From a bacterium (GTDB lineage Bacteria; Zhuqueibacterota; Zhuqueibacteria; Residuimicrobiales; Krinioviventaceae), in assembly GCA_029561455.1 (NCBI GenBank), contig JAKQIY010000029.1:1-64000 (forward strand): a stretch of DNA of 64,000 bases. Direction: 5' to 3'. Within the stretch, counting starts at the first letter, position 1; the number at the start of each line of letters is the position of its first letter. Under the pieces are notes generated by a model, which saw only the letters and a list, made by a program, of their open reading frames with translations, was not told the DNA's origin and did no database searches. Positions 7,726 to 16,343 of this stretch are shown here, one piece after another. The position numbers were made by a program, and so were the translations under genes.

Positions 7726-8181
7726 TTACAGGTTATGCAGCACTTTATACAGGATCACTTCGCTGCCATGATCGTGGAACTGGTATTTTACATCGTCCAT
7801 AAGGGTTTTAACTATGAATATGCCCCGTCCGCTGTCCTTGAAAATATTTTCCGGTTCCACCGGGTTGGCTATATCATCGGGAATAAAACCCTGACCTTCA
7901 TCACGTATATGAATTCTGATAAATTTGTCTGAATAGATAAATTTGATAAAAACTTTTTTGTGTTTGTTTTTTTTGTTCCCATGGATAATAGCATTGGCAA
8001 CAACTTCGGTAACGGCAATTCCCAGGTTATCACGATCATCTTCTTTCAGGCCGAGTTTTTTGGCCAGCTTGTCCGTTTCCATTTCCACTTTATGGATTTG
8101 TACCGGATCACTGGGAATGACCATTTCCAGAACATGTTCTTTATGCAAACTCACAAAGCCTTTTAACTTTTTCCAATTCAT
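7726..8181 (-). CDS. RsbW-like ATP-binding protein (anti-sigma/serine kinase type)
   Basis: A 151-residue protein of the GHKL ATPase class as in RsbW/SpoIIAB and the histidine-kinase-like ATP-binding regulators. The N-box is VTEVVANAIIHGN (E59, N63), the G1 box DEGQGF (94-99) and the G2 box GRGIFIVKTLMDD (118-130). It lacks transmembrane segments and a phosphoacceptor domain. Such proteins bind sigma factors or phosphorylate STAS-domain antagonists, but no STAS or sigma gene is in the window, so the partner is unknown. The gene is transcribed alone; an Omp85 gene follows after about 225 bases. Confidence 0.85.
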   Translation of the reverse strand: MNWKKLKGFVSLHKEHVLEMVIPSDPVQIHKVEMETDKLAKKLGLKEDDRDNLGIAVTEVVANAIIHGNKKNKHKKVFIKFIYSDKFIRIHIRDEGQGFIPDDIANPVEPENIFKDSGRGIFIVKTLMDDVKYQFHDHGSEVILYKVLHNL

Positions 8182-8338: not shown

Positions 8339-10225
8339 TTAAAAAACCCAGTTCAATAATAGTTGAATATTATTGATATAGTATTTTTCACCATCCTGAG
8401 GTTTAACTCTGTAACGAATGGCATCGAATACAAACCGCAGCCGGGGCGTTGGTGAATAGAACAATCGCAATACCGGGCCCTGGCTGGTGTAAACCCCGGT
8501 GGCGGTTTTCTTTTCCAGGCCGGTGCTGTTCAGCTCATGCCGCCATTCCTGACGGAAAAAGCATGAATAACCCGGGCCAATACGAAAGCCGGGAGTGGGT
8601 TGATAATTCCAGATAAAGTGAATCCACTGGTTACGCCGGGTTGCCAATACCCGTTCCGTCCACTCATCCCATGAAAGCTGGCCGTTTTCTTCCAGTTGCA
8701 GGCGATAGTCAAAAGACAGGGTGGAATTATGGGTTACCTGGAATTGCAGAGAATCGTCCATCGAGAATTTACGAAACACAAAACTCTTGGTTTGGACGCT
8801 TTTATCTTCAAAATCATAATCGACATAATTTGCCAGCACTTCAAAAGCCTGGGTGAATTTGAATGTTTTTACCGGGGTATAATTAACAGAAGGCCGCAGC
8901 AGGAAAATACGATTCCAGTTGTTATCGGCGCTACGTTCGCCAAAGATATAAACAAGATGATATAAATTAACGCTCGCCTGCAATTCTCCCCGCAGAACCG
9001 GACTAAAACGATGCACGCCGATCAGTCGGGAGTTGAAGCGTAATTCATCGCGGTCGTCAAAATTGCTGGTATCCGGAGTATCGTATTGAAATTTACTGAT
9101 GGAAATATAGCTGTACAGGGAATCTTTTTTTGTTACCGGCGTACTGAGACCGGCGACCATCATCAGGCGGCTGCTTTCATTATCCGGGGTAATAAATGCC
9201 GTACGCCCTGAAAAAGGCGAACTGGTATCTGTATCGATATCGTATGATTGTTTTTGCGTCCACCAGGACAATTGCAGTTGTGATTTAAGTCGGTTGCGGC
9301 GCAGGTAAAAAAGCGCATCCTGGCTTAGCCGTTGATCGCTGCGGTTGCGCCGTTTCTCTTCAATATTATCCACACTGGATAATATTTGGACATCCTTGAA
9401 ATACAGGCCGCTGTTCAATTGTATATTCAGGTTTCGGGATATATTGTAGAATAAAACATTATCGAGTCCTTTAACATTTTCCCGCAGGCTTTCAATATTG
9501 CCACTCGTGGAAGTGTAATTATCCCGCCGTTGGTTGGTGGTCAATAACCGCAGGGAATCGGAAGTGCCTGGAGCAAATTCCCGGTACATAGTGTATTGTA
9601 TATTCAGGTCTTTGTTTTGCCGTTGTGAAAATTGATCCTGCCCCAGCAGAACATTTAAATTGTTTTCATATTTTTCCCACGCGAATTTCTCGGCCGAGGC
9701 TTCAAAATAATAGTTATATCCCTTATCATCGCGGCTAAAGCGTGAATCCCATTTCGGCCCGGCTTGAGCAAAAAAACGCAGGTTGGGCAGAGGCGTATAT
9801 TCGATACCGAAATTGCCATGATGGGTGCGGATATCGTTGTTAAAACCGGATTGCCTGTCCATGAATAAAAGTGAGGAAAGTCTGGAATGAAGGGTAACCG
9901 TGGGCAGCAGGGAATAACCCAGTTTAAAATTTAAATTTTGGTCATCTTTCCATTTATCATTGTCCGAGGATAATTTTAGCATGGATGAAGTGAATTTCTC
10001 GTTCAACAGCACCTGCCAGCGGTTGTTGATGACCTGCATGGTAGTGAAATTATAATTCCAGATATAGGTATTAAATTCCTGCCTGAAACCAATTTCATTG
10101 TTATTCCCCGGCATAGCGGTAATGGGGCCGGAGTCCTCAGGTTCGGAATACGCCGCAGCAAATAATATAAAAATTAAAACAAGAGCATGTCTCTGGAACA
10201 GTTTATTAATTTTAATACCGGTCAA
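8339..10225 (-). CDS. Large outer-membrane barrel-like protein, unknown function
   Basis: A 628-residue exported protein; start is a TTG at 10225 with GGTGA just upstream (no better Met follows before the signal peptide LVLIFILFAAAYSEP). The mature part is a long series of alternating amphipathic strands rich in Asn, Gln, Tyr, Arg and Asp, ending in ..YYINNIQLLLNWVF with a terminal Phe, the usual C-signal of outer-membrane barrels. No plug, POTRA or TonB box is visible. I do not recognise the family. It lies between ftsB and the RsbW-like gene on the same strand with 165-base gaps, so it is probably its own unit. Confidence 0.7.
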   Translation of the reverse strand: MTGIKINKLFQRHALVLIFILFAAAYSEPEDSGPITAMPGNNNEIGFRQEFNTYIWNYNFTTMQVINNRWQVLLNEKFTSSMLKLSSDNDKWKDDQNLNFKLGYSLLPTVTLHSRLSSLLFMDRQSGFNNDIRTHHGNFGIEYTPLPNLRFFAQAGPKWDSRFSRDDKGYNYYFEASAEKFAWEKYENNLNVLLGQDQFSQRQNKDLNIQYTMYREFAPGTSDSLRLLTTNQRRDNYTSTSGNIESLRENVKGLDNVLFYNISRNLNIQLNSGLYFKDVQILSSVDNIEEKRRNRSDQRLSQDALFYLRRNRLKSQLQLSWWTQKQSYDIDTDTSSPFSGRTAFITPDNESSRLMMVAGLSTPVTKKDSLYSYISISKFQYDTPDTSNFDDRDELRFNSRLIGVHRFSPVLRGELQASVNLYHLVYIFGERSADNNWNRIFLLRPSVNYTPVKTFKFTQAFEVLANYVDYDFEDKSVQTKSFVFRKFSMDDSLQFQVTHNSTLSFDYRLQLEENGQLSWDEWTERVLATRRNQWIHFIWNYQPTPGFRIGPGYSCFFRQEWRHELNSTGLEKKTATGVYTSQGPVLRLFYSPTPRLRFVFDAIRYRVKPQDGEKYYINNIQLLLNWVF

Positions 10226-10390: not shown

Positions 10391-10699
10391 TCATCTGACC
10401 CTGATAACCACCTCATCCGCGGCCGCCATTCCCAGTTTTCTGGCTTCCAGTTCCAGGCGGTTCAGATCAATGGGCTCGGTAAGACGTTGTATTTCGGACC
10501 TGGTATAATCATTGCGTTGTTTCGCCAGATCGATTTGTTTTTGTATTTGCCTGCTTTCCTGTTTCAGGCTGTACAACTTGATAAATCCGGTTTTTCCAAA
10601 AATAAAAGAAAAAATAATGCAGATAAATATTTCCCAAAACAGGCATACCGGTTTGAGACATGGTTTTGTAAATTTTACTAATTTGCTCAAATTGCTCAT
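10391..10699 (-). CDS. ftsB: Septum-formation initiator FtsB/DivIC-like protein
   Basis: A short bitopic division protein: cytoplasmic tail, one transmembrane segment (LFWEIFICIIFSFIFGKTGF), a coiled coil (LKQESRQIQKQIDLAKQRNDYTRSEIQRL) and the C-terminal LELEARKLGMAAADEVVIRVR typical of FtsB/DivIC. It links FtsL and FtsQ in the divisome. I start it at the ATG at 10699 (102 residues), which has AAAGG upstream; the GTG at 10735 lies in a hairpin. Its position directly after enolase is the classic eno-ftsB order found in many bacteria, which supports the call. Confidence 0.9.
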   Translation of the reverse strand: MSNLSKLVKFTKPCLKPVCLFWEIFICIIFSFIFGKTGFIKLYSLKQESRQIQKQIDLAKQRNDYTRSEIQRLTEPIDLNRLELEARKLGMAAADEVVIRVR

Positions 10700-10720
10700 G
10701 TGCAATGCCTTTATTGACAT

Positions 10721-10762
10721 AAAAACGGTAAGCACCTCAAAGCCGGGTAGGGCTTTGAGGTG
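10721..10762 (-). terminator. Hairpin between enolase and ftsB
   Basis: Eight bases after the enolase stop codon is a perfect 12-bp stem, CACCTCAAAGCC / GGCTTTGAGGTG (10751-10762 and 10733-10744) with a 6-base loop, followed on the minus strand by CTTACCGTTTTT (T run at 10721-10725). It looks like a leaky intrinsic terminator or processing hairpin that lowers ftsB expression relative to the abundant enolase. The gap between stem and T run is longer than ideal. Confidence 0.6.
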
Positions 10763-10769
10763 GATACAA

Positions 10770-12074
<1,305 letters not shown>

Positions 12075-12151: not shown

Positions 12152-13654
12152 TTATAATACGATTGAGCGTATAACTAACAGGAAAAGAATGCTGCTCACT
12201 GCGCAAAACAAATTGACCATATCGTTATTGATCCATATATACCCGCCAATATGAACTGCCGGTTGCTGACAATGCCGGGTTTTTTCGGTAATTTTATTGC
12301 ATACCTGGCACCGGTATTTTGCCTGGACGGTAGCGCCTAAAAAACTGTCCACAAAGCTGGCAAGTAAGCCGGCCAGCATAATTATAACAAATTCTTTATT
12401 GTCAATAATCCTTACCGAACTAGGCGGAGCGGTCAGCCAGCCGGTAATAACCAGCAGTAGCGAGCCGGCTGCGGCTCCTGCTGTTCCTATGAGGGTTATA
12501 CCGCCGGAGGTTCCGGGAGGAACTGTTTTAAAATTAAGTATGGATACCGGTTTGGTCCGGGACAAGACGCCAATTTCCGTTGCCCAGGTATCTGCGGTAA
12601 CCGCGGCGAGAGCGCCGAGAAAGAAAATGTAAAAAATATCCAGGTGATAATAATTCCAGGTCAAAACCAGCGCCCCGGCCAGACCGCCGTTGGCAAGCAC
12701 CTGCCATAAATCTCTTTTACCGGTTTTTTCAAATATTGTGATCAGCTTTTGTTTATGGCCCTTGCCGATATTGGAAATCACGCTCGAAGTGATAAAAAAG
12801 GTCAGAATGGGTATTGTAAAAGCGAGGCGGCCGATGCCAAACACCACAACTCCCAGTAAAAACGCGCCAATCGCGCCGCCGGTATCCAGGAATTTGAACC
12901 GAAACGACATAATTGCCGCCAGCAGGGAAAGGATAATTCCCAGGGTGAAAAACAAGGCGTCGCCTGGCGTATGGTGAAAAAGATAGTGCATGGTAAAAGC
13001 GGCGCCCAGGGGAACAGTGAGGTTATCGGAACCATGCAGCGAAATAACCTCGCATGCGGTTGCGATGATCGCAACCAGGACCGCATACCAGATGACTTGC
13101 AGCGCCGTTAGCTGGATGGGTGTAAATTGCGGCAACGCCAGGGAACAGAGCGCTACTATCATAAATGTCGATACTAACATGGTTAACGACCCCTGCACGG
13201 ATTTGGCTTCAAAACCAAATTCCAGGTGAATGGGATGTTTTACTCTTTCTCCAACCAGGGAAGCGAGGGCATCGGCAATGGCCATGATTAACATGGCCGT
13301 GACCAGGATCAGTTTGTCGTTATCCCATAATAAAACCACCAGGATAACAAAGGAAAGCGGGTAAAAGACAGTGCCATACGAGTGTCGTTTGGTGCCGTGC
13401 ATCCCCCTGAAAAGATTTTTGCGAATGGCTACAAAATCGAGGATGGTGAACAACGTGCCCAGGATCAGCATCGGCCACATCGATTGCAGCGCAAATGGGG
13501 TCAGCGAAACCAGAATCCCTGTGAATACATGCACAAATTTACGCGACGCCTCGGGCTGCCAATGAAATAATTTCCTGAATATTTCTGCAATCAATACCAG
13601 GGAAAACAACGCGATGAAAAATAACCCAAGGTAAGTCCAGTCAGATTTAATCAT
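12152..13654 (-). CDS. Fused phytol/dolichol kinase-like (VTE5/SEC59-type) and DUF92 (VTE6-type) membrane protein
   Basis: The N-terminal half (about 1-230) resembles the CTP-dependent polyprenol kinase/cytidylyltransferase group: SRKFVHVFTGI, KRHSYGTVFYPLSF and MAIADALASLVGERVK are its hallmark motifs. The C-terminal half (about 250-500) is a DUF92 domain: FLDTGGAIGAFLLG, NGGLAGALV, DTWATEIGVLS, VPPGTSGGITLIGT and ASFVDSFLGATVQAKYRC-C. In plants VTE5 (phytol kinase) and VTE6 (a DUF92 phytyl-phosphate kinase) act in sequence, so one polypeptide could carry a two-step prenol to prenyl-diphosphate salvage; that is inference. At least 12 TM segments. The ATG at 13654 has ACAGGA upstream; the longer frame to 13714 is not needed. 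Confidence 0.85.
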   Translation of the reverse strand: MIKSDWTYLGLFFIALFSLVLIAEIFRKLFHWQPEASRKFVHVFTGILVSLTPFALQSMWPMLILGTLFTILDFVAIRKNLFRGMHGTKRHSYGTVFYPLSFVILVVLLWDNDKLILVTAMLIMAIADALASLVGERVKHPIHLEFGFEAKSVQGSLTMLVSTFMIVALCSLALPQFTPIQLTALQVIWYAVLVAIIATACEVISLHGSDNLTVPLGAAFTMHYLFHHTPGDALFFTLGIILSLLAAIMSFRFKFLDTGGAIGAFLLGVVVFGIGRLAFTIPILTFFITSSVISNIGKGHKQKLITIFEKTGKRDLWQVLANGGLAGALVLTWNYYHLDIFYIFFLGALAAVTADTWATEIGVLSRTKPVSILNFKTVPPGTSGGITLIGTAGAAAGSLLLVITGWLTAPPSSVRIIDNKEFVIIMLAGLLASFVDSFLGATVQAKYRCQVCNKITEKTRHCQQPAVHIGGYIWINNDMVNLFCAVSSILFLLVIRSIVL

Positions 13655-14226
13655 TGATCCTGTCTCTTGTTTGGAGTAACGTACCTGTTGATTGTGAGTG
13701 ACACATTTCAGCAATGTAGCATGTGACCCCGGTTTTGTAATCGGGAACCGTTTTGCGGGCGAACAAGGTCATAGTATCAACTCCGGCCTGTTTTGACAAA
13801 ATGCAAAAAAACTATTATTTTACTTGACAGAGAATCGCTTGTGGTACTCGCGGCAATTTTTCCCCAAGTTATCCACATTTGTATTTGGATTAATTTGGGC
13901 ATCTGGTTTCAATTTTGTAAGTACAATCCAATATCTGCTTAATATTTCAGCATTAACATGAAATTTACACTAGAAATCTACTCGTTAATTTTTGCGTATT
14001 GATTTGTTAAATATTTGTTTATTAATAACTTGTAATATTATAAAAATGTTTTCTAAGTTACTAATTTTCAAGCTAGTTATCTCTAAATTTTTTTTAAATG
14101 AAATTGACTGTCTGTTTGTGCTTGTAATTTTAATATGAAAAATTGTTGGTAACTTTTTCACAAGTTATCCACATTGGATAACTTACTATATTTTTTGAAA
14201 ATTATCTAAAATTTCCAACCGGCAGG
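13655..14226. other. AT-rich gap with DnaA-box-like sites
   Basis: The 572-base gap between the epimerase and the VTE5/VTE6 fusion has no gene and is AT-rich, especially 13900-14220. Two perfect DnaA-box consensus sites, TTATCCACA, lie at 13869-13877 and 14165-14173; both sit inside the same 15-mer CAAGTTATCCACATT. The second is also one arm of a palindrome AAGTTATCC-ACATT-GGATAACTT (14162-14184), which gives a nearly matching box on the other strand. Possible meanings are a replication-origin or DnaA-titration site, or a regulatory site. Transcription is the same direction on both sides, and no replication gene is nearby, so an origin is not established. Confidence 0.45.
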
Positions 14227-15236: not shown

Positions 15237-16343
15237 TTATTTTACAGCTTTTTTATTATTGCGGCGGCCGATCATGATTAGCTGGGTGATCAGAATGTAC
15301 ATGATCACTGCCTGAACAAGAATGATGATGCAGCCGGCCAGGGACAAATATGGCAGCAGAATTGCGGCGCTGCCGATACAAAAACAAACCAGGTAAATAA
15401 ATATCACCGCGGCCCGGTGTCCCATACCCAGGTCCAGCAGCCGGTGCGAGAAATGGCATTTATCGCCAATAAATAAAGGTCTTCCTTCCCGCCACCGGAT
15501 AAACATTACAGAAAAAGTATCATATAGCGGAATACTAAGAATCAAGATCGGCATTAAAACCGGGATAATGCCGACGCTGGTATGAACCACATAAGAACCC
15601 ATAACCGTCAGCGAGCCAAACATAAAACCGAGGAATAAACTGCCGCTGTCGCCCATAAATAATTTGGACGGGTGAAAATTATAAAGCAGAAAACCCAAAC
15701 AGGCGCCGGCCAGGGCCATTAAGATAAAAGCAAAAAATACCTGTCCCTGTAACACGGCAACGGTAAAAAATACAAACGCGGCGATTATTGAAACCCCGGC
15801 GGTCAAGCCATCCATATTATCCAGCAGGTTGAATCCGTTGGTGATACCCACTATCCAGATGGTGGTTATGATAATATCCAGCGCTTGTCCGGGCATGAAA
15901 TCGGTGCGCACCCCGAATATCGCTACCAGCAGGGCGACCAGGAACTGGATGAAAAATTTGAGTTTATAGGACAATTTTTCTTTGAAAATATCATCCAGCA
16001 GACCCAGTAAATGGATCAAAAATCCGCCGCCGAGGATGACGATCAGGCGCGGCAGCACATTATTCAGCAACGGAAAGATCCTGACGATGGATTGCAAATG
16101 CTGTTGAACGAATGGCTGGGTGAATAATAAATAGAAGCCGATTATATTGCCGACAATCGTTATAAAAAAACCGCCGAAAATTCCAACTCCGCCCATCAGC
16201 GGTTTGGCGGAAAGATGTACTTTACGCTGGCCGGGTTTATCAACCACATTCCATTTTAATGCCGCTTTGATGATTAGTGGTATCAGCAGGGCTGAAATGA
16301 CAAAGGCTTGCGTAAAGACCAGGCCATATAGTAAATATCTCAA
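15237..16343 (-). CDS. MraY/WecA-family polyprenyl-phosphate sugar-1-phosphate transferase
   Basis: A 368-residue polytopic membrane enzyme with about 11 TM segments. Family motifs: PGQRKVH (37-43), LLDD (115-118), NxLDNMDG (172-179), MGDSGS (about 235) and a cytoplasmic His loop GDKCHFSHRLLDLG. It transfers a sugar-1-phosphate (GlcNAc-1-P or similar) from UDP-sugar to undecaprenyl phosphate, the first step of a lipid-linked surface glycan. Peptidoglycan MraY is less likely given the neighbours. The start is a TTG overlapping the stop codon of the GT4 gene (TTGA), so translation is coupled. Confidence 0.9.
   Translation of the reverse strand: MRYLLYGLVFTQAFVISALLIPLIIKAALKWNVVDKPGQRKVHLSAKPLMGGVGIFGGFFITIVGNIIGFYLLFTQPFVQQHLQSIVRIFPLLNNVLPRLIVILGGGFLIHLLGLLDDIFKEKLSYKLKFFIQFLVALLVAIFGVRTDFMPGQALDIIITTIWIVGITNGFNLLDNMDGLTAGVSIIAAFVFFTVAVLQGQVFFAFILMALAGACLGFLLYNFHPSKLFMGDSGSLFLGFMFGSLTVMGSYVVHTSVGIIPVLMPILILSIPLYDTFSVMFIRWREGRPLFIGDKCHFSHRLLDLGMGHRAAVIFIYLVCFCIGSAAILLPYLSLAGCIIILVQAVIMYILITQLIMIGRRNNKKAVK

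Follow-up and report, generated by a model that had tools for sequence, protein, structure and literature searches.

We analyzed a 64,000 nt stretch of contig JAKQIY010000029.1 (the window) from a KSB1 genome of 5.85 Mb that is 98.8% complete. It carries a gene made of two halves, and the presence of this gene in a KSB1 genome is confirmed as a real observation (Table 1). The gene is one uninterrupted ORF of 500 aa with an ATG start at position 13654. A longer form beginning with a TTG at 13714 was considered; the ATG is favored because the relatives of the fused gene start at the same place. The closest relative, from a genome of the same genus, is 64% identical. PDB sequence searches did not find relatives. 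An AlphaFold model computed with 75 aligned sequences (pLDDT 93.9, pTM 0.92) shows a membrane protein built largely of helices, apart from a few short strands close to the C terminus.

Table 1. The fused gene, its two halves and neighboring genes in the window.
Feature	Position	Strand	Description
Fused gene	12152..13654	-	Integral membrane protein of 500 aa; coordinates include the stop codon (12152-12154)
N-terminal half	12959..13654	-	aa 1-232; predicted SEC59/DGK1/VTE5-like CTP-dependent kinase domain; based on residues and CdsA profile match
C-terminal half	12155..12958	-	aa 233-500; DUF92/COG1836 (VTE6 family); based on PF01940, conserved residues and Foldseek
Enolase	10770..12056	-	Directly downstream, same strand; neighbor in many relatives too
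DivIC/FtsB-like septum protein	10391..10735	-	PF04977, E=1.7e-14; conserved neighbor
Predicted outer-membrane protein	8339-10225		Relatives in 29 neighborhoods
RsbW-like HATPase	7726-8181		PF13581

The conserved neighbors of the fused gene are eno, divIC, a DUF502-like membrane protein (recognized by eye) and outer-membrane proteins. Across the phylum, the outer-membrane protein and the HATPase of Table 1 accompany enolase, divIC and the fused gene. The neighborhood was considered as a source of operon clues to the substrate and found uninformative; its conserved members are housekeeping genes (eno, divIC) and include no isoprenoid genes.

The C-terminal half is the only DUF92 copy in its genome. 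PF01940 (DUF92) matches aa 242-487 with an e-value of 1.5e-65 and 221.5 bits (cut-off 27.5), and TIGR00297, the NCBIfam hypothetical equivalog within DUF92, scores 104.4 bits, below its cut-off of 205.85. The conserved residues of this half are D355-T-W, E360, S383-G-G, D436-S, Q444, CxxC...HC (449-462) and N477/N481. D355-T-W, E360, D436-S, Q444, N477 and N481 show no variation among 75 fused proteins of several phyla, and D355, W357, E360 and D436 are kept in every complete fused relative examined. The two conserved aspartates of DUF92, predicted to be catalytic by the criterion of Makarova et al. (PMC5898192), are thus present as D355 and D436. COG1836 has been predicted to act in the phosphorylation of phytyl phosphate (PMC3223725), and in Arabidopsis the DUF92 family member VTE6 is a phytyl-phosphate kinase that follows the phytol kinase VTE5, with CTP preferred (reviewed in PMC9782597). 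The cysteine and histidine positions at aa 449-462 read CCHC in 103 rows, that is, in most DUF92 halves examined, and elsewhere they are swapped jointly, e.g., to DRSV. This suggests an optional metal site.

The N-terminal half is harder to place. Alone (aa 1-232) it has no significant match in Pfam or NCBIfam, and PF01148 is reached by only one of 36 fused relatives (E=0.0036), the protein studied here having no match to it. The residues of this half are more telling. It carries a putative substrate/phosphate clamp, R38-K39-xx-H42 (RKxxH), followed by D128xxA131, G135, K151, G155, E202, D210-N211 and P215. We take DxxAxxxG ... KxxxG ... E ... DN to be the nucleotide-site pattern of the SEC59/DGK1/VTE5/FOLK kinases (COG0170), and every position of it is occupied as expected (D128, A131, G135, K151, G155, E202, D210, N211). 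R38, H42, D128, K151 and D210 are intact in all complete fused relatives examined except one; position 39 is K, R or Q among the fused relatives. A farnesol/geranylgeraniol kinase has been reported in Plasmodium, and this demonstrated enzyme, PfPolK, has its clamp, R29-K30-xx-H33, in the same RKxxH spacing (PMC10849223).

A profile of the N-terminal half retrieves the genome's own CdsA with e-values of 2e-5 to 7e-5. The first-pass annotation, which was made from the sequence alone, had held that a kinase reading would fall if this half scored only to cytidylyltransferase-like membrane proteins and no kinase activity were found. The first part of this condition cannot be applied neatly. The N-terminal half is indeed a distant relative of CdsA, but it has the RKxxH clamp, where the genome's own CdsA has A, Q and I, and a large group of stand-alone proteins resembling kinases is much nearer to it than CdsA is. 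The N-terminal half thus belongs to the wider CdsA-like superfamily with features of the kinase branch, and it is a predicted kinase. The conserved residues, the match to the genome's own CdsA and what has been published on its archaeal counterpart (PMC5898192) together argue for its kinship with prenol kinases. Several groups of stand-alone membrane proteins of 200-300 aa with the RKxxH...DxxA...KxxxG...E...DN pattern were also found (L185:3795-4475, L184:3973-4653, L040-L051, L154-L164). Eight of the stand-alone N-type proteins and the A2-group members were scanned and gave no relevant Pfam match. From their residue pattern, these proteins look like unrecognized prenol or lipid kinases.

The fused gene is old and common. 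Within the phylum, a match exists in 69 of 82 genomes, of which 55 carry a complete fused gene; the remaining matches are six genes cut by contig ends or a frameshift, six stand-alone DUF92 genes (family f7) and two unassignable fragments. A chance fusion is ruled out because the 55 complete relatives are conserved within the phylum. When the genomes of 84,980 species were scanned, the top 80 loci belonged to KSB1, Calditrichota, Neomarinimicrobiota, Ignavibacteriota, Kryptonia-type bacteria, Chlorobiaceae and two Bacillota. Among 148 genomes of the Bacteroidota group, 62 have the fused gene, 31 a stand-alone DUF92 gene and 55 no DUF92. On one Neomarinimicrobiota contig (L103:2810-4318), a stop codon interrupts the fused gene after about 143 codons. 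The Chlorobiaceae are photosynthetic and carry the fused protein as standard, so the special link to heterotrophy drawn in the first-pass annotation does not hold. PCP_red domains (protochlorophyllide reductase C-terminal-like), some of them in tandem, occur in four genomes of the phylum (G028, G032, G033, G005); no PCP_red match was found in the genome studied here.

This architecture has been published before. In Methanosarcina, Makarova et al. (2015; PMC5898192) described fusions of the Mbar_A3310 type, in which a Sec59-like domain is joined to arCOG02245/COG1836/PF01940, and proposed that they are isoprenoid kinases. Going by that published description, the archaeal and bacterial proteins have the same two domains in the same order and keep both pairs of aspartates. 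What is added here is that KSB1 and, on a wide scale, related bacterial phyla possess the fusion and have conserved it deeply. VTE5 and VTE6 of plants and cyanobacteria represent these two families and catalyze successive steps; they are two separate proteins with demonstrated activities in photosynthetic hosts, whereas the KSB1 protein is a single chain. The CTP-dependent lipid-alcohol kinases PfPolK, FOLK, SEC59 and DGK1 share the RKxxH clamp and the membrane fold family with the N-terminal half. They are single-domain proteins, however, and the PfPolK assay yielded monophosphates only.

We consider it moderately likely, judging from the sequence features above, that the fused protein is a bifunctional salvage enzyme that converts a prenol to a prenyl phosphate and then to a prenyl diphosphate, probably with chains of C15-C20. 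At the N-terminal half, a free isoprenoid alcohol would receive the gamma phosphate from CTP (or a different NTP) and become the monophosphate, and the DUF92 half would add a second phosphate to give an allylic prenyl diphosphate. Geranylgeraniol, farnesol and phytol would be likely substrates. The first-pass annotation had proposed both the domain order, SEC59/VTE5-like then DUF92/VTE6-like in one chain, and this reaction sequence. The order is borne out by the PF01940 match and the residues of the N-terminal half; the reaction sequence is consistent with the predicted active sites, which are intact in both halves, and with the same prediction made for the families when they stand alone. The fusion has persisted across several phyla, as expected of consecutive steps, and this supports the reading as successive reactions. 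The adjacent halves in a Bacillota locus (L124, below), the high-confidence structure models and the possible consumers of the product in the same genome also speak for it. Channelling between the two steps, which the first-pass annotation had proposed as well, would be conjecture. Against salvage we count the lack of a direct match of the N-terminal half to a kinase-family HMM, the housekeeping character of the conserved neighbors and the weak Foldseek matches given below. The kinase chemistry, the CTP donor, the substrate and the physiological source of the alcohol are all points that we infer. As a salvage enzyme, the protein would be a sensible means of recycling rather than a new kind of system.

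The product could re-enter isoprenoid metabolism through MenA and the GGGP synthase/DGGGP-synthase-like/geranylgeranyl-reductase set of the same genome. MenA, GGGP synthase (TIGR01769) and a geranylgeranyl-reductase family protein score above cut-offs there; a UbiA protein is closest to DGGGP synthases, below the equivalog cut-offs. A decaprenyl-phosphate phosphoribosyltransferase is encoded as well. Each of the 49 high-quality genomes in the phylum has a GGGP synthase/PcrB homolog, in line with a report of archaeal-type lipid genes in some FCB bacteria (PMC7852524). A full archaeal lipid pathway was considered for this genome and set aside: CarS is absent, and the Fe-ADH_2 matches are weak, which makes the call of a G1P dehydrogenase uncertain. 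In Bacteroidota, PcrB accompanies 21/22 fused genes that are not Chlorobiaceae-like, 7/40 that are (a split made only by the length of the matched stretch), 1/31 stand-alone DUF92 genes and 28/55 genomes without DUF92. This co-occurrence was rejected as independent evidence, since the pattern follows clades. A more specific role would be the recycling, in KSB1 bacteria, of geranylgeraniol (or of C20 alcohols that are saturated) into diphosphates for an archaeal-type isoprenoid ether-lipid route (GGGP synthase, the DGGGP-synthase-like UbiA, geranylgeranyl reductase). As this route would run beside ordinary fatty-acid lipids, a single polypeptide would then supply a membrane of mixed composition. 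We regard this as unlikely.

Another substrate is conceivable. The N-terminal half could be a kinase of undecaprenol or a longer polyprenol that keeps the carrier lipid of envelope glycans phosphorylated, with the DUF92 half acting on the same lipid or being regulatory. The N-half family is typified by SEC59 dolichol kinase, and archaeal DUF92 genes adjoin uppS (PMC5898192). A user of polyisoprenyl phosphate, a WecA/MraY-like transferase recognized by eye, lies close by at 15237-16343 of the window, and a kinase of the DgkA type is absent from this genome and from the other nine of its family. However, a second phosphorylation of undecaprenyl phosphate would reverse the reaction that the cell needs, the fused gene is retained alongside DgkA in many genomes, among them G044, G046, G047 and G020-G022, and the characterized DUF92 enzyme VTE6 uses a C20 substrate. 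We therefore see only a small chance that undecaprenol is the substrate.

The same absence of DgkA would also fit a CTP-dependent diacylglycerol kinase. The yeast enzyme of this kind, DGK1, belongs to the same superfamily as the N-terminal half, so that the fused protein might serve phospholipid metabolism, with the DUF92 half as a second lipid-phosphate enzyme. We think this rather improbable, since the DUF92 enzymes of known activity phosphorylate prenyl phosphates and the fusion does not follow the loss of DgkA across the phylum.

The history of the fusion bears on whether both halves matter. In a tree of N-terminal halves, those of FCB-type fused proteins lie together on one side of a branch with a support of 98. 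The fused Bacillota protein L149 groups with stand-alone proteins, and in a related Bacillota locus (L124) the halves are encoded by two neighboring genes separated by about 20 bases. We do not claim an independent fusion in Bacillota, as a single clade of all fused N-terminal halves is not rejected (AU p=0.588); a second fusion event there is possible. The stand-alone DUF92 protein of Melioribacter (L151) nests inside a clade of fused proteins, and its counterpart in KSB1 family f7 is placed next to such a clade, which suggests that the N-terminal half was lost secondarily in both. An Ignavibacteriales protein (L146:919-2448, Ignavibacteriota) has a degenerate N-terminal half (K39S, H42F, D128S) and an intact DUF92 half. 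Its genome and that of Melioribacter L151 each encode a separate, intact stand-alone N-type protein, which may compensate for the dead or missing half. This is suggestive only, because separate N-type proteins are also present in Ignavibacteriota where the fused N-terminal half is intact. In the f7 genomes with stand-alone DUF92 (G024, G026 and G029; loci L035, L037 and L036), we did not find an N-type protein, only weak CdsA-like matches. The two-step model leaves these genomes unexplained unless the draft assemblies hide such a gene.

These losses, together with the higher conservation of the C-terminal half, would fit a protein in which only the DUF92 half, as a prenyl-phosphate kinase, is physiologically relevant and the N-terminal half is dispensable or decaying. 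All predicted catalytic residues of the N-terminal half are nevertheless intact in the window protein and in nearly all of its relatives, and we doubt strongly that this half is idle.

The two halves are distant homologs of each other, and both are distant relatives of CdsA. HHalign of one half against the other gives P=0.0033, and a profile of the stand-alone N-type proteins matches the C-terminal half at 7.9e-7, with the aspartate of DxxA aligned to that of DTWATE. With the full model, Foldseek places CdsA (4Q2E/4Q2G) best by probability (0.69-0.91), with e-values of only 0.08-1; with the C-terminal half, ranks 1-4 are all CdsA (probability 0.57-0.92), again with weak e-values (0.08-1). The HHpred result of Makarova et al. 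(PMC5898192) agrees with this remote relation. CdsA, an intramembrane CDP-DAG synthase (PDB 4Q2E, 4Q2G), and the fused protein are alike in their remote fold and in a catalytic membrane site based on aspartate. The CdsA signature, KRxxxxKDxxxxxPGHGGxxDRxD, is missing from all 500 aa of the fused protein, and a differing chemistry is expected. That the fused protein is a two-domain CdsA-family member that makes CDP-lipids and is no kinase, as the shared ancestry would allow, is very unlikely, since a separate CdsA with the full signature is encoded elsewhere in the genome (G000:C29), neither fused half has this signature, and CdsA lacks the RKxxH clamp.

As a putative prenol-to-prenyl-diphosphate enzyme, the fused protein joins both predicted steps in one natural chain in KSB1 and in the culturable green sulfur bacteria, and would offer a single test case for a bacterial pathway. 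The fusion also strengthens the assignment of DUF92 proteins, whose Pfam name is still a number, to isoprenoid phosphorylation.
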